A DNA stretch of 64,000 bases, from the NCBI GenBank assembly GCA_020853775.1, contig JADYYH010000010.1:38981-102980 (forward strand), read 5' to 3'. The stretch's first letter is position 1; the number at the start of each line of letters is the position of its first letter. This document shows, one piece after another, positions 5,949 through 19,384 of this stretch. Below the pieces are notes generated by a model that ran no database searches, had not been told where the DNA came from, and was given only the letters and a program-made list of their open reading frames with translations. The stretch comes from Nitrospira sp. GTDB lineage: Bacteria > Nitrospirota > Nitrospiria > Nitrospirales > Nitrospiraceae. The translations under genes and the position numbers were made by a program.

Positions 5949-6941
5949 ATGACGAACCAGATCAACAAATCGCTGATCGATTGCCACGTTCATCTTGCGG
6001 CACTGCCCGACGGCGACAACGGCTGCTACATCTCTTCCAAAACCCTGCGCAGCCCCCTGTTTCGCTTCCTGCTCTGGAAACATGGCCTCTCGCCGGAAAA
6101 GCCGCGTGAGGCGAACCAGAAATATCTGGCCGATCTGCTGACCGAACTGCGGGCTTCACGCCATGTGCACAAGGCCGTGCTCCTCGGCATGGACGGGGCT
6201 TATGATCAGAACGGCCGGCTGAACCAGGCCGACACCGATTTCCTTATCGGCAACGACTATGTACTGAAGACGGCGCAGGCCTATCCGCACGAATTACTCG
6301 CCGGCGTATCCATCAACCCGCAGCGGCGCGATGCCGTCGATGAAGTGCATCGTTGCGCGGATGCCGGTGCCGTGCTGGTGAAAGTGCTGGCGAACGCGCA
6401 ACAATTCGATCCGGCAAACAAGACCTACATTCCCTTCTATCGTGCACTGGTTGAACGCAAGTTGCCGTTCCTCAGTCATGTCGGCTATGAATTCAGCTTG
6501 ATCGGCAAGGATCAGTCGGTGGGTGAGCCGGACCGGCTTCGCCTCGCATTGGATGAGGGCGCCACGGTCATTGCCGCACACGCATGCAGCTACGGCTTGA
6601 TCCTCTACGAAAAGTTCCTCCCGACTTTGCACGATCTCGTGCGGCGCTATCCGCATTTTTATGCGGACATTTCCGCCCTCACGTTGCCCAACCGGCTGCG
6701 GATGCTGCTACATCTCCGGAAATATCCGAAGGTGCATGAACGTCTCCTGTTCGGAACAGATTACCCGTTGCCAGTTTTCCACCTGGCGGCATGGGGACGA
6801 GTCGGGATGGGAACCCTGCGAACACTCCTGACGACCGGGAACCGCTTCGACCGGCAAGTGGAAGTCTGCCGTGGACTTCGGCTGGGATTTCGGTCGATCG
6901 GTGATCTCATTTCCCCTGTGTCGGTACAATCATTCCGTTGA
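5949..6941 (+). CDS. Metal-dependent amidohydrolase (TIM-barrel, COG2159-like)
   Basis: 330 residues from an ATG at 5949; the frame extends upstream into the previous gene's 3' end but that part is not protein-like. The N-terminus carries the metal-binding HxH in DCHVHL (His13, His15). Later segments include LSHVGYEF, a region around AAHACSYG, and FGTDYPLP near the C-terminus, where Asp is the usual last metal ligand. These match the amidohydrolase superfamily of hydrolases and decarboxylases. The substrate cannot be read from sequence. It lies 65 nt after the acyltransferase fusion, and its stop overlaps the start of the ECF sigma gene. Confidence 0.85.
   Translation: MTNQINKSLIDCHVHLAALPDGDNGCYISSKTLRSPLFRFLLWKHGLSPEKPREANQKYLADLLTELRASRHVHKAVLLGMDGAYDQNGRLNQADTDFLIGNDYVLKTAQAYPHELLAGVSINPQRRDAVDEVHRCADAGAVLVKVLANAQQFDPANKTYIPFYRALVERKLPFLSHVGYEFSLIGKDQSVGEPDRLRLALDEGATVIAAHACSYGLILYEKFLPTLHDLVRRYPHFYADISALTLPNRLRMLLHLRKYPKVHERLLFGTDYPLPVFHLAAWGRVGMGTLRTLLTTGNRFDRQVEVCRGLRLGFRSIGDLISPVSVQSFR
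6925..6930 (+). promoter_or_regulatory. -10-like hexamer before the ECF sigma gene
   Basis: TACAAT lies 7 nt upstream of the TTG start at 6938 and 22 nt upstream of the ATG at 6953, inside the 3' end of the amidohydrolase. It would place transcription initiation at or next to the TTG. No good -35 is visible. Confidence 0.4.
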
Positions 6942-7450
6942 GCACCACTGCCATGACGCGAGACGACATCCTCACCCATCTGCGCGAAAGGATTCTGGCC
7001 TTCGCGACATCACGCCTCCAGCAGGACGCCGCCGAGGATCTCACGCAAGAGGTGCTGGTCCTCCTCCATGAGAAATATGCCCGCGTGACTGAGCTGACCG
7101 AACTGGTGCCACTGGCCTTTCAGGTGCTCCGGTTCAAAATGCTGGATGCCCATCGCAAATCCTTGCGGCGGGGCGAGTATAATCGAGATTCCATCGATGA
7201 CCTGCCGTTGGCCAATCCCGGCGACGATCCGGCCACCCAATTGGATCAGAAGCAGCGCGTCGACCGCTTGTTGACCGCCGTGGCGCAGCTTGGAGAGCGC
7301 TGTCGTGAACTGTTCAGATGGAAGCTGGAGGGCCACAGCTTTCCCGAGATTCAAACACTCATGGGGCAGGCGTCGATCAACACCATTTACACCTGGGACC
7401 TGCGTTGCCGGAAACAGTTGTTGAGCCTGATGGGCGGCACATGGGAATAA
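6938..7450 (+). CDS. RNA polymerase sigma factor, ECF type
   Basis: 170 residues from a TTG at 6938; an in-frame ATG at 6953 is the alternative. The N-terminal half has sigma region 2 features (AAEDLTQEVL, then the RFKMLDAHRK helix). The C-terminal half has region 4 (LGERCRELFRWKLEGHSFPEIQ, split here by the motif NTIYTWDLRCRKQL), a helix-turn-helix for -35 recognition. The length is typical for ECF sigma factors. The start overlaps the amidohydrolase stop by 4 nt, and the next gene encodes a membrane protein with an anti-sigma-like layout, so the two probably form a sigma/anti-sigma pair responding to an envelope signal. That pairing is inferred from order. Confidence 0.85.
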   Translation: MSTTAMTRDDILTHLRERILAFATSRLQQDAAEDLTQEVLVLLHEKYARVTELTELVPLAFQVLRFKMLDAHRKSLRRGEYNRDSIDDLPLANPGDDPATQLDQKQRVDRLLTAVAQLGERCRELFRWKLEGHSFPEIQTLMGQASINTIYTWDLRCRKQLLSLMGGTWE

Positions 7451-7477
7451 TCCAGGATGAGGGTTGCCTGATTCGGC

Positions 7478-7512
7478 TTACGTTTTACGTTTCACGTTTT
7501 ACCTTTGACGGT
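7478..7512. repeat. Short 7-bp tandem repeat
   Basis: About four and a half copies of a 7-bp unit: TTACGTT, TTACGTT, TCACGTT, TTACCTT, TGACGGT. It lies in the 89-bp gap between the ECF sigma gene and its presumed anti-sigma partner. Confidence 0.7.
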
Positions 7513-7539
7513 TTCGTTCACGAATGACCCACGAACCGT

Positions 7540-8850
7540 ATGGCTGATCACGGGCTGGAACATCTGTTAGGCGGCTTTGCGGCTGATACCTTGACGCCGG
7601 AGGAGCGCAAGCGGCTCTATGCCGCGGCCTTGCACGATCAGCAGCTGTTCACTGCCCTGGCCGACGAACAGGCATTGAGGGAGTTGTTGGCGGATCCGGA
7701 TGTTCGTCGCCGTCTCCTCCAGGCTGTGAAGCAGCCGGGTTCCGCTGCGACAGGCGGCACCCCTGGCTGGCTGAGTTGGTTCAGGAAACCGGCAGGACTC
7801 GCCTGGGCAGGAGGCCTGACAGCAGCCGTCGTTGCCATCGCATTCGGGACCAGAATCTATCAAGAGAGCCTCGACCGCACGACCCAATCGACCGTGACCG
7901 AGGAGGCCAGACAGGCCGCGCCGGCAATGCAACGCGCGCAACCGGCCATGGACCCGACACCCTCTGCACCTGCGCCGGAAAGGACAGCCAAAGGGAATAC
8001 CCACTCGGCCAAGAACGACAGACGCGCCGATACGCTTGCCAAACGCGAGCAGCCTGTCGCAGGCAGGCCGCTGGAGCAGCCGGGGTCCAAATCTCTCGCC
8101 GACAATGCCACGTCTCGGCGCGAGCGCGATGCCTCGAACAAGCAAGGACCGATGGCGGCAGCCGACAAGGAATCCGCAGGCACGACGGCCTCAGCCGATC
8201 GGAAGCTCGCTACTCCCGCAGCTCCTCCGGCAGCCGCTCCGCAACCGTCGACAGCTCCGCCCCTCCAGCAAACGCCGGCCGGCTTATCGGCGGCGAACGC
8301 TCCAGCCCCGAAGACGAGCGCCCGCGCCCTCTTTTATGGTGAAGAAGCGAGCTCCAGCATCGGGCAGGCGAAACCATTGGGCCTTCGCTACAGTTTTGTG
8401 ACGAGGGGATCTGATGGCCGGACTCAGGAAGTCACTGCGGCAATGGCTGCGCGAAGCCGCGAACCAGTGCGCCTCACCGTTGAAGCGACGCAGGAATCGT
8501 ATGTACAGGTGCTCCAAAACCTTGGCTCTGCCGGCACCAGACTCTGGTGGCCGCCGCAGGAAACCGGCAAGATCTCCCTCAAACTCCAGCCTGGCAAACG
8601 GACCGAGATTCCCATGCCGCCTCCGGCCGAGAACGGCCTAATCACACTCATCATCCGGCTTTCGTCGAAACCCTTCGGACCGCTGACGATGCAAGAAGTC
8701 GGCATGCTGGACCGATTCTCCGCAACGCTGCTCATCGAAACCGTCTCGCCCGGCACGGGCACCGGCGTCCAGGAACAGGCGACCTATGTCGTGAGCCACG
8801 ATCCATCCACCAGCGCCCAGCTGGCCGTCGAGATACCGGTCGTTCAGTAA
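7540..8850 (+). CDS. Membrane anti-sigma-like protein with Pro/Ala-rich linker and C-terminal extracytoplasmic domain
   Basis: 436 residues. Residues 1-80 are a charged cytoplasmic helical domain rich in Leu and acidic residues (LTPEERKRLYAAAL). One transmembrane helix follows at about 87-108 (LAWAGGLTAAVVAIAFG). Then comes a long low-complexity Ala/Pro/Gln/Lys linker (about 120-265) and a folded C-terminal domain (about 270-436) with the pattern PVRLTVEATQESYVQVL, which recalls DUF4384-type domains. The layout (cytoplasmic sensor, single helix, extracytoplasmic domain) and its position 89 nt after an ECF sigma gene suggest an anti-sigma factor. No zinc-binding HxxxCxxC motif is present, so the mechanism would differ from the ZAS class. 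Confidence 0.7.
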   Translation: MADHGLEHLLGGFAADTLTPEERKRLYAAALHDQQLFTALADEQALRELLADPDVRRRLLQAVKQPGSAATGGTPGWLSWFRKPAGLAWAGGLTAAVVAIAFGTRIYQESLDRTTQSTVTEEARQAAPAMQRAQPAMDPTPSAPAPERTAKGNTHSAKNDRRADTLAKREQPVAGRPLEQPGSKSLADNATSRRERDASNKQGPMAAADKESAGTTASADRKLATPAAPPAAAPQPSTAPPLQQTPAGLSAANAPAPKTSARALFYGEEASSSIGQAKPLGLRYSFVTRGSDGRTQEVTAAMAARSREPVRLTVEATQESYVQVLQNLGSAGTRLWWPPQETGKISLKLQPGKRTEIPMPPPAENGLITLIIRLSSKPFGPLTMQEVGMLDRFSATLLIETVSPGTGTGVQEQATYVVSHDPSTSAQLAVEIPVVQ

Positions 8851-10131: not shown

Positions 10132-10234
10132 CATAACGAGCGTCACGGTTGCGCACGCCGGCGAGACGGTGAGCCGACACAGTGCGAATACCTCTGCTGT
10201 GACGTATGATTTCTTATTCCCCCCTATCTCTCCC

Positions 10235-10330: not shown

Positions 10331-10394
10331 ACCCCCCTTCTCTTCTGAAAGGATTTCCCGCTTCGTCCCATACCCTCCCGTGAAGGGAGGAGTT

Positions 10395-11294
10395 ATGGAG
10401 CAGCACCACACCAGTCCTGAACCGAATGCGCCAGCCTATCGGCACGATCCCCGCTCCTACCAAATCGCGAGCTTGAGCACCCTCCTTGTGTACGGTCTCT
10501 GCTGGCTGCACTTCGATCTGTCGATCTGGCAGATCGCCGTGACGGTCGGAACCGCATTGCTCACTCAATACGTCGGGACCGCACTCGCCGACCTGCCGTC
10601 CTTCGATCCCAAGAGCGCCCTGATTTCTTCACTGTCACTCTGTCTCCTGCTGCGCACGGATGATCTAGCCGTCGCCGCGTTGGCAGCCGTCATCGCCATC
10701 GGCAGTAAGTTTGTCCTTCGCTGGAATGACAAACACCTCTTCAATCCAACGAATCTGGCCTTGACCGTAATTCTTGCCTGCGGGCTAGGGTGGCTCTCGC
10801 CGGGGCAATGGGGACAGGCTGCCTGGTTCGCGTTTCTTCTCGCCTGCCTTGGAAGTCTGGTCGTGACCCGCGCCGCGCGGGCCGATGTCACGCTGGCGTT
10901 CCTCGCCTTCTATGTCGGGCTGCTGTTCGCACGGACGCTACGGCTCGGTGATCCGCTCACGATTCCGCTCCATCAGCTCGAAAGCGGCGCGCTGCTCATC
11001 TTTGCCTTCTTCATGATCTCCGACCCGAAGACAACACCCGATTCACGAATCGGGCGCATCATCTATGCGCTCCTGGTGTCCCTGGCCGCACTCTATGTGC
11101 AGTTCGGATTGTTCAAGCCGAACGGGCCACTGTGGGGCCTTATCGCCTGCGCGCCGCTGGTGCCAGTGATCGATCATATACTTCCCGGTTCGCGCTACCA
11201 CTGGGCACGCGCTTCAACCGGTGACTCTCCTCCCTCCGCTCCAAAACCAGTCCGCAATCTCGGCTCTGTGCTGTCATCAACAAAGGAGGTTCCT
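10395..11294 (+). CDS. RnfD/NqrB-like membrane protein, no stop codon before the next gene
   Basis: Starts at the ATG at 10395 behind a GGAGGAG site and encodes about 300 residues with 8-10 hydrophobic helices. HLFNPTN near residue 118 and FFMISDPKTTPDSRIGR near 210 match the RnfD/NqrB family of ion-pumping electron-transport subunits. I find no Gly-Ala-Thr flavin-attachment motif, and no other rnf or nqr genes are nearby, so it is probably a stand-alone relative rather than part of an Rnf complex. The frame runs without a stop into the DUF2330 protein, so the end given here is the base before that gene's ATG. As written, the sequence encodes a 747-residue fusion. Confidence 0.75.
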
Positions 11295-12638
11295 ATGCGA
11301 CGTGCCATCGTTCCTTCGCTATTTCTCATGCTGGCCCTCTTCGCCTGGACAGACAACGCCTCGGCTTTTTGCGGCTTTTACGTCGGCAAAGCCGATACGA
11401 AACTCTTCAATAAGGCCTCCGAAGTGGCCATCGCACGGCACGACAACAAGACCGTGATCACGATGGCCAATGATTTCAAGGGCGACGTGAAGGAGTTCGC
11501 GCTGGTGGTGCCGGTCCCGACTATCTTGGAGAAAGAACAGATCCACGTCGGCGATCCGGCTTTGCTGAAACATCTGGCCGATTATTCCGCACCTCGACTG
11601 GTGGAATACTTCGACCAGAATCCCTGCCTCCGCGACGACCTGATGGAACGCCGCAGCATGGACGCCATGAAGAGCGTGGCGCCTGCGGCCGCTCCGCGTG
11701 AACGCGACAAGGCCCTGGGCGTGACGGTGGAGGCGCAATATACGGTCGGTGAATACGACATTCTGATTCTCTCCGCCAAGGAGAGCAGCGGCCTCGAAAC
11801 TTGGCTGACTGAAAACGGGTATCGTATCCCGCCCGGAGCATCGGCGGTCCTGCAGAGTTATCTCAAACAGGGGATGAAATTCTTTGTCGCGAAAGTGAAC
11901 CTGGGCGAGCAGGACAAGCTTGGCCTGACGCACCTCCGGCCGCTGCAGATCGCGTTCGAATCGCCCAAGTTCATGCTGCCGATCCGTCTCGGCACGGTCA
12001 ATGCCGACGGCGCGCAGGAGTTATTCATCTATTTCCTCACGAAGCACGGCCGGGTCGAAACCACGAACTACCGGACGGTGCGGTTACCGGATGGGCAGGA
12101 AATTCCGCTCTACGTGAAGGACAAGTTCGGCGACTTCTACCGTGATCTGTTCAGCCGGCAGGTGAAGCGGGAATACGAACGCGGCGTCTTCATGGAATAT
12201 GCCTGGGACATGAACTGGTGTGATCCCTGCGCGGCTGATCCGCTGTCGGCTGAAGAGTTGCGCAAGCTCGGCGTGTTCTGGCAGGAGAACAACGGCCGGA
12301 TAGGCAAAGGGATGCCGATGGCGCAGCACGTCTTCCTGACCAGACTGCATGTCCGTTACGATGCCACGCACTTTCCGGAAGACCTGATGTTCCAAGAGAC
12401 ATCCGATCGCGGCAACTTTCAGGCGCGCTACATCTTGCGTCATCCGTGGACCGGGGCGGAGGAATGCGCGGCTGCCACGTCATACCGCCAACAATTACGC
12501 GAGCGATACGAGCAGGAAGCGCAGACGCTCGCCTCGCTGACCGGGTGGAATATCAGCGAGATCCGCCACGCCATGAGATTGGCATCCCTGCCGGCCGACA
12601 GGGAGAAGAAATGGTATCAGCGTTTGTGGATGAACTAG
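11295..12638 (+). CDS. DUF2330 family exported protein
   Basis: 447 residues from an ATG at 11295 with an excellent ribosome binding site (AAAGGAGG, 5 nt before). The N-terminus is a classic signal peptide (RRAIVPSLFLMLALFAW, cleavage near ASAFC). The mature part begins CGFYVGKADTKLFN, includes FALVVPVP and HVFLTRLHVRYD, and matches the DUF2330 family, which has no known activity. It lies in the same frame as the RnfD-like gene with no stop codon between. The strong internal start and signal peptide argue that it is also made as a separate exported protein. A strong hairpin follows its stop. Confidence 0.85.
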   Translation: MRRAIVPSLFLMLALFAWTDNASAFCGFYVGKADTKLFNKASEVAIARHDNKTVITMANDFKGDVKEFALVVPVPTILEKEQIHVGDPALLKHLADYSAPRLVEYFDQNPCLRDDLMERRSMDAMKSVAPAAAPRERDKALGVTVEAQYTVGEYDILILSAKESSGLETWLTENGYRIPPGASAVLQSYLKQGMKFFVAKVNLGEQDKLGLTHLRPLQIAFESPKFMLPIRLGTVNADGAQELFIYFLTKHGRVETTNYRTVRLPDGQEIPLYVKDKFGDFYRDLFSRQVKREYERGVFMEYAWDMNWCDPCAADPLSAEELRKLGVFWQENNGRIGKGMPMAQHVFLTRLHVRYDATHFPEDLMFQETSDRGNFQARYILRHPWTGAEECAAATSYRQQLRERYEQEAQTLASLTGWNISEIRHAMRLASLPADREKKWYQRLWMN

Positions 12639-12652
12639 CAGCGTACAAACCC

Positions 12653-12677
12653 CGGAGGCCGGAACAGCCGGCCTCCG
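12653..12677. terminator. Bidirectional hairpin terminator
   Basis: A perfect 10-bp stem (CGGAGGCCGG / CCGGCCTCCG) with a 5-nt loop lies between the convergent DUF2330 and DUF3617 genes. There is no clear T-tract, so its efficiency as an intrinsic terminator is uncertain. Confidence 0.65.
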
Positions 12678-14733: not shown

Positions 14734-17700
14734 TCAGGATCGGACGTCCCGTTGCGTCACTTCGAGGACCGAGGGCTCCTGCCGGTCGTTGGCGCTTCGT
14801 CCGGTCACCGTGCGAATGACGACGCCCTCGCGAAACACCACAAAGTTCGACGGGATCGCCGCGATACGCGGCCCCGGGAGAATAATTCCCGCCAGGTTCA
14901 AGGGATCAGCCGCAGAAATGTTGATCTCCTGCTGAGTGGCGGTGCCTGGGCGCTTCTTCAATGCCCGCAGTGCCTCCAGCGCTTCCGGCAAGGCAAATTG
15001 TTCGCCGGTGAATCCGCCGACAAACCGTCCCCCGCGTAACTCACCCGACGATTCGAGACGCCGATAACAGATCAACAGATCCCGCCAGGACGAGACGATC
15101 GACTCGCGTGCCAGCAAGTCCCGGAAGACCACTCCATACCGCTGCAGCAATTGCCGCGCAATGCGCTCTGTCACCTGCGCGGCTTGCGAGGAATCAGGAA
15201 CCTGAGCGAACGCGGATGGTGAGCGCGGATCCGCCGAGGCCTGCCGGCTGATCTGAAACTGCCCGACTGCCGGCCTCAGGAGCGACCAACGACCTCCGAC
15301 ATGGCGGGGCCGGCGATTCCGATCGGACGCCTCCGCGCGACGTCGCCGGGGATCGATCAGCGCCCGTAAATTATCGAACCCGTCGGCTGTCACCAACCCG
15401 GCCGCGACCAATTCCCAGAGCCCGTCTTCCACTTCCGACGCCAACAAACGGGTCCCGTGCAACAGCTCGCTGAAAAAGCTCGCGCCACGCTCCTGGAGGC
15501 AACGGCGAATGGCCTGCGCCGAGGGGCTGAGTTTGGACGAACAATCCACCCGGGCGACATCCGCTCCGGTCGCCTCCAGCAACACCGGGGCATCTTCTCG
15601 CGCAAACAGACTGACCGGCGCGACACGCGTGGGCACCACGCGTCGTCCCGGCAACACGGTAAGTTCCTGCATGAGCCGCGGATGCGGCGTCACACGTCCC
15701 CACATCAGCGCGCCGCCCAAACAGAGCCGGTCCAGCCATTCAGGCTGATATTTCGCCAGACGAACCCGAAGAATCTGCGCTTCCCAGGCGGATGCGGCGG
15801 CCTCGAATCCTCCGAGCTGCTTCGCGACCTCCAGCAGTCCGGCCTCTCCATGGAGACGAGCCCCCGGTGACGCATGCTGCCACTGGAACAGAAACCGCAT
15901 AAACTCGGCGGCGGTGACCGGCTCTATCTCCTTCCGTAACCGACCGACCGTGAGACGGTGAATTCTAGCCAGCAGGCGACGATGACACCACTCGACTACC
16001 TCATCCGTGGTTCGTGACGCCTCCAAGGAAAACCGTCCACGCAGCACGTGGCCTTGCGCTTCGAGTCGCAACATCGCGCCGTCGACATCATGCACGGCCA
16101 AGTCCAGACGCGCAGCCAGGCCGGCCGTTGTCACGGGCCCGATACTTTCCATCCATCCTAAGACGACGCGCTGAATTACCTCTTCCCGCTCCAGCGAGGT
16201 TTCGGGAGGCGTCGGAGCCGCCTCCGGATCGATCCGAACTTCCGGAAACAGCAGGCTGCCATATTGATGATGTTCCGCGGCCAACCATCCTCGCTTACTC
16301 TCTCCCTGCCACAGCGTGGCGATCCGGCCGGCGGGCTCGAGCCTCGGCGCGAGCAGGTCCCACCCCGGCATGCAGGCACAGGGCACCCAGCCGAGCGTCA
16401 ACAACGCATCGTGCAATTCCTCTGCATCCCGCACGTCGGGCCAGGATTCTTCTCGGACCTGATCGATGGCCGACTGGTCCAACGCGCCCATTTCGCCCGC
16501 CAGCGCGGCCGGAAGCGTGCGCCGCATATCCACCGCCCGTGCCCGGCGTTCTTCGAGCGGCGCATCGTCGAGATAGGCATAGGGATTGGCATTTAAAATT
16601 TCATGGCAGAAGGCGGAGGGCATCGGCGTATCGACGGCGACGCAGGTGATCGAGCCGGATTCAATCTTGTTCAACACCGTCGCCAGCCCGTCGATGTCCA
16701 TCGCGTCCGTCAGGCAATCCCGGATCGTTTCCTGCGCCAACGGATGGTCGGGGATCTGACGTACCGTCCGTTCCCCTTGAAAATTGTCCTGGCAGGCAAT
16801 CGCATCCGGGAACACGGCAGACAGCAGATCCTCGGCGCGCATGCGCTGAATTTGAGGAGGCACCCGCTTTCCGCCGGCAAACCGGAGCAACGCCAAAGCC
16901 CGCGACGCGTTCCACCGCCACCGGGTCATGAACATCGGCGCCTGCAACACGGCCTGCGTCAGCACGTCGCGCAGTGTCGTGACGTTCAAAAACGCGAACA
17001 CCGTATCGAGCGGAAAACTGTGCTTTTCGCCCAACGACAACACGATGCCTTCATCCGTCGCGGCGGCTTGCAGTTCAAAATCGAAGGCCACGCAAAAGCG
17101 TTTCCGCAGCGCCAATCCCCAGGCGCGATTCACCCGGCCGCCGAACGGGGCATGGATGACGAGCTGCATGCCTCCGCTCTCATCGAAAAATCGTTCCGCC
17201 ACGATCGTCTGCTGCGTGGGTACCGTCCCCAGAACGGACTTCCCGGTTAAAATATATTGGACCGCCTGTTCCGCCCCACGCTGATCGAGACCGCATTCCT
17301 GCTTGAGCCATTGCACCGGCGGCGCGGAAGGAGGAGGCGCCGGCACATGTGGATCCAGACGCTGGTCGAGATCGGCCCTGAGGCGCGCCACTTCTGCGGA
17401 CAAATCCGCCGTGCGCGCCGGCGCTTCACCCCGCCAGAACGGGATGGTCGGAGGAGCACCCTGCGCATCTTCGACACGCATCTTGCCGGTTTCGACGCCT
17501 TTGATGCGCCAGGATGTATTGCCCAGCAGGATAATGTCTCCCGTCAGACTCTCGACTGCGAAATCCTCATCGACGGATCCCACCACCGTGCCGTCCGGTT
17601 CAGCAATCACGGCGTAGTTGGCGGTGTCGGGAATGGCGCCGCCGGACGTGATGGCGGCCAATCTGGCGCCCCGGCGGCCGCGGATCTGATGGTTGATACG

Positions 17701-19185
17701 GTCGTGGTGCAGATAGGCTCGCCCCCTGCCTCGACTGGTCGCATATCCGTCGGCCAACATGGCGACCACCGCATCGAACGTCTCACGGCTCAGGTCGCGA
17801 AAAGGCATGGCCTTGCGGCACAACTCATACAGCGCCGTCTCGTCCCAGGCTTGGGTGGCAGCCGCCGCGACGATCTGTTGCGCCAGGACATCAAGGGGCG
17901 CGGGCGGCACCTCGATGTGGTCTAACACACCGGCGCTGATCGATCGGATCAGCGCGGCACATTCGATCAACTCGTCACGCGTGGTGGCAAAAAGGCGGCC
18001 TTTCGGGATGGCATGAACCCAATGGCCGGCCCGGCCGACACGCTGTAAGCAGGTGGCAATAGACCGGGGTGATCCGATCTGGCAGACGAGATCGACCGTT
18101 CCGACATCGATGCCGAGTTCCAGAGAGGCCGTCGCGACGACCACTCGCACGGCTCCGGTCTTTAATCGGTCCTCGGCAGCCAGGCGGATTTCCCGCGACA
18201 AGCTCCCGTGGTGGGCCGCCACGACGCCATCCCCCAAATGGCGCAACCGATCTTCTAAGTAGTGCGAGACCCGCTCGGCCAAGCGCCGCGTATTGACGAA
18301 GACCAGCGTGGAGCGATGCGCCTCGACCAGCGCGGCAACCCGATCGTAGATATCGCTCCAGATCGCATTGGTCGCCACGGGACCGAGTTCATCTTTCGGG
18401 ACTTCGACCGCCAGATCCATGTCGCGACGATGGCCGACATTGATGATCGCCACATCGTTCGCCAGCCGCAGGTCGTTCGGAGGTCCGTCTACGGAATCCG
18501 CGTCCTGCATGAGCGGAGAAGACCGACGGCTCCCGACCAGAAATTGCGCCATGCGTTCGATCGGACGCTGGGTGGCGGACAGGCCGATCCGCTGGACAAC
18601 ACCGCCAGCCAGCGCCTCCACGCGTTCCAACGACAAGGCTAAATGCGCCCCTCGCTTGTTCGGGGCGACGGCATGGACCTCGTCGACAATGACCGTACGG
18701 ACCGTCTTCAACATCGCCCGGCTCTTTTCCGCGGTGAGCAGAATAAACAGCGATTCGGGCGTGGTAATCAGGATATGCGGAGGGCGCCGGAGCATCTGCT
18801 GCCGTTCAGTCATCGGGGTGTCGCCGGTCCGTACGATCACCCGGAGGTCGGGCAACAACAGTCCCGCCGAGAGGGCCGCCTGACCGATCTCGAGCAGCGG
18901 TTGTTGCAGGTTTTTTTGCACATCATTGCTGAGCGCTTTGAGGGGGGAGATATAGAGGATTTGTGTTTCGTCCCGCAGGTCGCAACGCAGTGCCTGCTGA
19001 AACAGCCGATCGACACAGGACAGAAACGCGGCCAGGGTCTTGCCCGATCCGGTCGGGGCGGAAATCAGCAGGTCGCGGCCGGACTGAATCTCAGGCCAGG
19101 CCTGCTGCTGCACCTCCGTCGCAACCGTAAATTTTGCGGTGAACCATTCAGCGATGATGGGATGAAAGGGCGGAGCCGGAGTCAT
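14734..19185 (-). CDS. lhr: Lhr-type large ATP-dependent helicase
   Basis: 1483 residues from the ATG at 19185. This start is preferred over the upstream TTG/ATG-like codons because an extended -10 element ends 6 nt before it. Motifs run in order: Walker A APTGSGKT (residues 43-50), DEVH in VIVDEVHAV, LSATQ, and QRVGRAGH, an SF2 DEAD/DEAH core followed by a winged-helix and a large C-terminal region. The length is close to that of full-length E. coli Lhr, not the roughly 900-residue core-only form. Lhr is a 3'-5' DNA helicase linked to DNA repair. The gene stands alone and converges on the UspA gene. Confidence 0.93.
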   Translation of the reverse strand: MTPAPPFHPIIAEWFTAKFTVATEVQQQAWPEIQSGRDLLISAPTGSGKTLAAFLSCVDRLFQQALRCDLRDETQILYISPLKALSNDVQKNLQQPLLEIGQAALSAGLLLPDLRVIVRTGDTPMTERQQMLRRPPHILITTPESLFILLTAEKSRAMLKTVRTVIVDEVHAVAPNKRGAHLALSLERVEALAGGVVQRIGLSATQRPIERMAQFLVGSRRSSPLMQDADSVDGPPNDLRLANDVAIINVGHRRDMDLAVEVPKDELGPVATNAIWSDIYDRVAALVEAHRSTLVFVNTRRLAERVSHYLEDRLRHLGDGVVAAHHGSLSREIRLAAEDRLKTGAVRVVVATASLELGIDVGTVDLVCQIGSPRSIATCLQRVGRAGHWVHAIPKGRLFATTRDELIECAALIRSISAGVLDHIEVPPAPLDVLAQQIVAAAATQAWDETALYELCRKAMPFRDLSRETFDAVVAMLADGYATSRGRGRAYLHHDRINHQIRGRRGARLAAITSGGAIPDTANYAVIAEPDGTVVGSVDEDFAVESLTGDIILLGNTSWRIKGVETGKMRVEDAQGAPPTIPFWRGEAPARTADLSAEVARLRADLDQRLDPHVPAPPPSAPPVQWLKQECGLDQRGAEQAVQYILTGKSVLGTVPTQQTIVAERFFDESGGMQLVIHAPFGGRVNRAWGLALRKRFCVAFDFELQAAATDEGIVLSLGEKHSFPLDTVFAFLNVTTLRDVLTQAVLQAPMFMTRWRWNASRALALLRFAGGKRVPPQIQRMRAEDLLSAVFPDAIACQDNFQGERTVRQIPDHPLAQETIRDCLTDAMDIDGLATVLNKIESGSITCVAVDTPMPSAFCHEILNANPYAYLDDAPLEERRARAVDMRRTLPAALAGEMGALDQSAIDQVREESWPDVRDAEELHDALLTLGWVPCACMPGWDLLAPRLEPAGRIATLWQGESKRGWLAAEHHQYGSLLFPEVRIDPEAAPTPPETSLEREEVIQRVVLGWMESIGPVTTAGLAARLDLAVHDVDGAMLRLEAQGHVLRGRFSLEASRTTDEVVEWCHRRLLARIHRLTVGRLRKEIEPVTAAEFMRFLFQWQHASPGARLHGEAGLLEVAKQLGGFEAAASAWEAQILRVRLAKYQPEWLDRLCLGGALMWGRVTPHPRLMQELTVLPGRRVVPTRVAPVSLFAREDAPVLLEATGADVARVDCSSKLSPSAQAIRRCLQERGASFFSELLHGTRLLASEVEDGLWELVAAGLVTADGFDNLRALIDPRRRRAEASDRNRRPRHVGGRWSLLRPAVGQFQISRQASADPRSPSAFAQVPDSSQAAQVTERIARQLLQRYGVVFRDLLARESIVSSWRDLLICYRRLESSGELRGGRFVGGFTGEQFALPEALEALRALKKRPGTATQQEINISAADPLNLAGIILPGPRIAAIPSNFVVFREGVVIRTVTGRSANDRQEPSVLEVTQRDVRS

Positions 19186-19191
19186 CGGGTG

Positions 19192-19200
19192 ATCGTAACA
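19192..19200 (-). promoter_or_regulatory. Extended -10 promoter of lhr, leaderless arrangement
   Basis: On the minus strand TGTTACGAT ends 6 nt before the ATG at 19185, which places the transcription start at or beside the A of the start codon. No Shine-Dalgarno is present. Confidence 0.55.
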
Positions 19201-19384
19201 CAACCACCACTGGCAGAACATGCGGGTCGGACCGTTGAATCGTGCGGGAGCTGGAGGGGAAGTCTCGGGCGGGGGGAACTTTTATGGAACGGCAGGCCGT
19301 GCGGAGAGCATCCAGACCATGCCGGTTCAGGAGGCGGGATGTGGTCGTCTTCCTCTTAGCGAACACCCAGCAAGCCAGGCTGCC

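Follow-up and report, generated by a model that had tools for sequence, protein, structure and literature searches.

A reading frame in Nitrospira that joins an RnfD-like membrane protein to an exported DUF2330 protein, and its possible origin from a translationally coupled gene pair

A stretch of 64,000 nucleotides of Nitrospira DNA, here termed the window, raises the question of which proteins are made, and by which route, from a single open reading frame that passes from a membrane protein into an exported protein. The frame comprises 747 codons without an internal stop at 10395-12638 of the forward strand (stop codon at 12636-12638), on which all features of the locus given below also lie. 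The first-pass annotation of this DNA had described an RnfD-like part running directly into a DUF2330 protein with its own Shine-Dalgarno (SD) sequence, ATG and signal peptide, and both descriptions are upheld by the reading of the open frame and by a Pfam scan. An alternative upstream ATG is present at 10206 in the same open frame; the start at 10395 is preferred over it because it follows a good SD, GGAGGAG (10386-10392, read from the sequence), and agrees with the start in close relatives. From this point, an RnfD/NqrB-like membrane domain with ten transmembrane helices spans residues 1-270 (10395-11204), within which the NQR2_RnfD_RnfE family (PF03116) matches residues 134-263 with 48 bits against a gathering cut-off of 27.7. 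It is followed by a disordered, stop-free, in-frame linker of 30 codons (11205-11294; AlphaFold2 model confidence mostly below 55), which contains the SD of the second protein, AAAGGAGG (11282-11289), translated as Lys-Glu-Val in the window's frame. The internal ATG at 11295 opens a DUF2330 signal peptide of 24 residues (11295-11366) with a predicted cut ASA/FCG at 11366/11367, and the mature DUF2330 part occupies 11367-12635. The DUF2330 family (PF10092) matches residues 322-666 (E 4e-85, 285.7 bits against a gathering cut-off of 24.7), and nothing besides it and PF03116 scored above cut-off in the Pfam scan. Just past the stop codon lies an inverted repeat, CGGAGGCCGG-aacag-CCGGCCTCCG (12653-12677, read from the sequence), without a T run, which is a possible candidate for a 3' end hairpin.

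Foldseek assigns the membrane part to the RnfD/NqrB fold (A. woodii RnfD, E 5.6e-9; NqrB, E 1.1e-5; urea transporters come next), RnfD profiles align with both of its halves, and its ten helices were counted by eye on the AlphaFold2 model. Beyond fold and helix number, it shares with RnfD and NqrB the FNP and SDPxTxP motifs and the Asn/Asp pair flanking riboflavin and a possible Na+ site. In the C. tetanomorphum RnfD the latter residues are Asn124 and Asp248, and FMN is covalently bound to Thr153 in a linker comprising residues 140-190 (PMC9588780). Asn124 and Asp248 align with N117 and D210 of the present protein (alignment read by eye), and both positions are invariant in 36 aligned relatives. 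Unlike in RnfD and NqrB, the linker between the five-helix halves that bears the FMN-carrying Thr is missing, residues 136-210 of the A. vinelandii RnfD having no counterpart in the profile alignment. Thus the core residues of the flavin/cation pocket have been kept and the covalent-FMN site is missing, in agreement with the first-pass view that the flavin-attachment motif is absent. The absence of rnf partners, claimed at the same time, likewise holds: no match to an RnfA/RnfE-type gene (PF02508) was found in the window's own genome, which is rated 100% complete and contains one PF03116 gene, one DUF2330 gene and, elsewhere, one ApbE gene. The lack of an RnfA/E-type gene, the missing FMN loop and a score of 37 bits against TIGR01946 (RnfD), below its curated cut-off of 207, together rule out a genuine Rnf complex. 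Two-subunit systems related to Nqr and Rnf are known in which a membrane subunit of the RnfD/NqrB type that lacks the flavinylation Thr is combined with an extracytosolic subunit (PMC11334425). The present pair resembles these complexes in being a two-gene module that lacks the covalent-FMN site, but differs from them in having neither a C-terminal cytosolic NAD-binding domain nor an FMN_bind subunit, with DUF2330 in the extracytosolic place.

As for DUF2330, a fold search returned no PDB match at E≤0.001, a sequence search found no relative in the PDB, and a literature search recovered no paper mentioning the family. An alignment of 39 relatives reveals invariant cysteines, including those of a C-D-P-C motif, mostly in the form W-C-D-P-C. 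This motif (window 11295-12635) is reminiscent of redox CxxC motifs.

The association of the two proteins extends to contigs labelled as Acidobacteria, Rokubacteria, Delta-, Gamma- and Alphaproteobacteria, and others. At the 38 non-Nitrospira loci that allowed spacing to be measured, with start codons picked by a simple rule, the genes overlap in 24 cases, lie within 30 nt of each other in 7, are in frame in 2 and stand further apart in 5, so that at 33 of the 38 the genes overlap, are fused or are no more than 30 nt apart. Subunits of heteromeric complexes are over-represented among genes with short overlaps (PMC10666635). A larger conserved operon is ruled out, as no third neighbor is constant. 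The dedicated partnership proposed by the first-pass annotation is thus recovered, in that the two genes stand alone and close together in many phyla, and the RnfD-like and DUF2330 proteins are dedicated partners that probably form a two-subunit inner-membrane module. As to whether they are always neighbors, a question raised in the same place, three loci (L050 and L053 from Ca. Parabeggiatoa, and L073 from Acaryochloris) contain a DUF2330 member of this subfamily but no RnfD-like gene upstream in the examined DNA. At another locus (L071, 6001-8132) the order is reversed, with DUF2330 first and the RnfD-like gene second, the two overlapping. In five loci from Acidobacteria and Deltaproteobacteria (L042, L048, L054, L059 and L061), the genes share an out-of-frame overlap of about 50-98 nt, and the tail of the RnfD-like protein crosses the signal-peptide region of DUF2330 in another frame. 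Elsewhere in the window, a weak sigma-70-like factor (below Pfam cut-offs) adjoins a protein rich in Pro and Ala that has one likely membrane segment, at 6938-8850 of the forward strand, and these genes are possibly a sigma/anti-sigma pair; a 1495-residue frame on the reverse strand (14734-19221) resembles a large Lhr-type helicase, as judged by eye.

Within the Nitrospira family, both halves are usable in 68 genomes: they share one stop-free frame in 27 and are split in 41. The in-frame state also occurs in Nitrospira moscoviensis and Ca. N. defluvii (L011, L012), in a relative from another family of the same class (G271, locus L183) and in two contigs that carry the labels Acidobacteriota and Bacteroidetes (L015, L041). 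The split genomes mostly show a 4-nt ATGA stop/start overlap, their upstream frame typically reading the SD as Gln-Arg-Arg-Phe and ending on the TGA that overlaps the ATG; the in-frame genomes differ from them in frame and, with few exceptions, read the SD as Lys-Glu-Val. Pairs with ATGA overlaps that use termination-reinitiation often encode subunits of one complex (PMC6728339, PMC10666635), and the split relatives are of this type, whereas in the window the stop is gone and the frames are joined. In several split genomes the upstream stop precedes the start of DUF2330 by tens to hundreds of bases, and reading up to the start is therefore not indispensable. On a quick tree of the two conserved domains, from which the direction of change was not inferred, the fused and split states change 10 times, at least 7 of these changes being forced by well-supported branches. 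The first-pass annotation had considered that a stop in all relatives would reduce the locus to an ordinary two-gene operon. Comparison of the junction finds no such uniform stop; the fused state is not universal either, and the two states interchange.

Two isolated in-frame rows (L100 and L102) have one extra base relative to their split neighbors and could be assembly or sequencing errors. For the window itself, it is scarcely credible that such an error joined two separate genes: error is excluded for its clade because 27 in-frame genomes agree, 7 of which are single-contig assemblies, and among them are separate species with 75-89% identical proteins. This agreement rules out a sequencing artefact or a missed base in the window. 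In two further loci (L141 from genome G068 and L145 from G057), stops or a change of frame interrupt the RnfD-like part beside an intact-looking DUF2330, which points to a pseudogene or an assembly error.

What selection maintains in the in-frame state can be seen from the window's own in-frame clade of 16 genomes. In its linker, differences at codon positions 1, 2 and 3 amount to 0.465, 0.396 and 0.478, compared with 0.077, 0.043 and 0.37 in the DUF2330 domain, and the near-equal values at the three linker positions imply that the linker amino acids are almost unconstrained. The linker nevertheless contains no stop codon in any row of the clade, and its lengths of 87, 90, 120 and 123 nt are each a multiple of three. 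Under simulated neutral substitution, all rows remained free of stops in 0.2%, 0.4% or 4.6% of the runs, depending on the choice of branch lengths, the last figure being obtained with the most lenient ones. Chance is hence a poor explanation for the stop-free linker, the result being significant though not overwhelming. At the same time, AAGGAGG and the ATG are invariant in the clade despite a fourfold-site tree length of about 5. Elsewhere in these genes AAG accounts for 60% of the Lys codons and GAG for 49% of the Glu codons, so that this invariance would be unexpected if the SD were conserved as codons alone. In the full set of 27 in-frame genomes the SD is close to invariant, a few variants being present (L105, L106). 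Two features are thus kept side by side: a linker that stays open in frame, and a start site conserved at the nucleotide level.

The conservation of the start site bears on the possibility that all functional DUF2330 comes from internal initiation, with the open frame merely exposing its start, as in coupling without termination, and the fusion being a tolerated by-product. The retained SD could indeed reflect the needs of internal initiation alone, given that SD and ATG are under nucleotide-level selection; the almost unconstrained linker and the ATGA overlap of the split relatives, which is a coupling arrangement (PMC10666635), also fit this account. However, every ribosome that starts at 10395 yields the fusion, so that the membrane part is produced entirely in fused form and the fusion cannot be rare relative to it; we consider the account unlikely as a whole.

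The signal peptide bears on a different possibility, namely that the fusion works as an uncut covalent protein, in which the signal peptide is an eleventh helix tethering DUF2330 to the RnfD-like core. The in-frame state is recurrent and has been held throughout the 16-genome clade, and a tether would be tolerable in partners that probably form a complex. Yet Ala stands at position -1 in every genome of both kinds (27 of 27 in-frame, 41 of 41 split), and residue -3 is Ala in 24 and Val in 3 of the in-frame genomes, the same as in the split ones. The cleavage motif is thus equally well kept in both states, whereas a pure anchor would need neither this motif nor the internal SD, and we regard an uncut working fusion as quite improbable.

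The A after the ATG, which creates the TGA stop of the split genomes, never varies in those split rows that are aligned at this start, and it is present in 67% of the in-frame genomes. A separate RnfD-like protein could in principle still arise if ribosomes shifted frame near the internal SD and terminated on this old overlapping stop, and a +1-frame TGA does remain at the start codon in 17 of the 27 in-frame genomes. In the window, however, the first +1-frame stop lies 163 nt past the ATG, the old stop having been lost in its subclade. A programmed frameshift to the old stop is accordingly unlikely for the window, and we give this explanation very little credence.

The explanation that we favor, with moderate confidence, is that a coupled gene pair has become a gene for a polyprotein that retains an internal start, giving rise to both a precursor and a separate partner. 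The ancestor would have been a translationally coupled pair with an ATGA stop/start overlap, and a slight shift of frame, either in the linker or in the SD spacer, would have merged the two frames into one. Ribosomes starting at 10395 would then make a precursor of 747 residues; the read-through fusion is unavoidable in that no stop follows this start. Both the N- and C-terminal ends of RnfD are cytoplasmic in the solved C. tetanomorphum Rnf complex (PMC9588780), and together with the ten helices this would place the signal peptide in its normal orientation. The precursor would therefore have ten membrane helices with a cytoplasmic C-terminus. The old signal peptide would come next, inserted N-in as the eleventh segment, and would export DUF2330. 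Cleavage of the fusion by signal peptidase I probably takes place at ASA/FCG, as the conserved motif suggests, and the mature proteins would then equal those of the split species. Other ribosomes probably initiate at the conserved internal SD and ATG (11282-11297), and would produce DUF2330 alone with its own signal peptide. Read-through and internal initiation had been posed by the first-pass annotation as alternatives; each is retained here, but not the choice between them, as the comparative data favor both together, the SD and ATG being conserved at the nucleotide level inside a fused frame that is itself held open. In functional terms, an RnfD-type, flavin/cation-binding membrane subunit would work together with a periplasmic, Cys-containing subunit, although a redox or ion function of the module is the weakest step of the proposal and must be considered doubtful.

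To our knowledge, the nearest precedent is FbcH of Bradyrhizobium japonicum, in which cytochrome b and cytochrome c1 arise from one precursor, while in other bacteria they are encoded by separate genes. As in FbcH, a multi-helix membrane subunit is followed by a signal peptide and then by an exported partner in one frame. The proteins are unrelated, however, and the present locus differs further in having a second start and SD under selection and in the interchange of fused and split states among close relatives; moreover, the FbcH precursor is cut, whereas cleavage here is a prediction. Literature searches found no open paper on FbcH and nothing usable on internal starts mapped with retapamulin.

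Tentatively, we propose that the pair repeatedly toggles through tiny frame changes between a coupled arrangement and a polyprotein processed by signal peptidase with a selected internal start, and that it would constitute a hitherto undescribed two-subunit, flavin-type transmembrane module composed of an RnfD core without covalent FMN and DUF2330. The tie to an RnfD-type membrane partner provides DUF2330 with a first testable function. On the whole, the locus offers a natural experiment in how bacteria coordinate the production of both subunits of a membrane module: among related species the same two genes overlap, are fused or stand apart, with their start and export signals kept, and read-through, internal initiation and processing by signal peptidase thereby become directly comparable.
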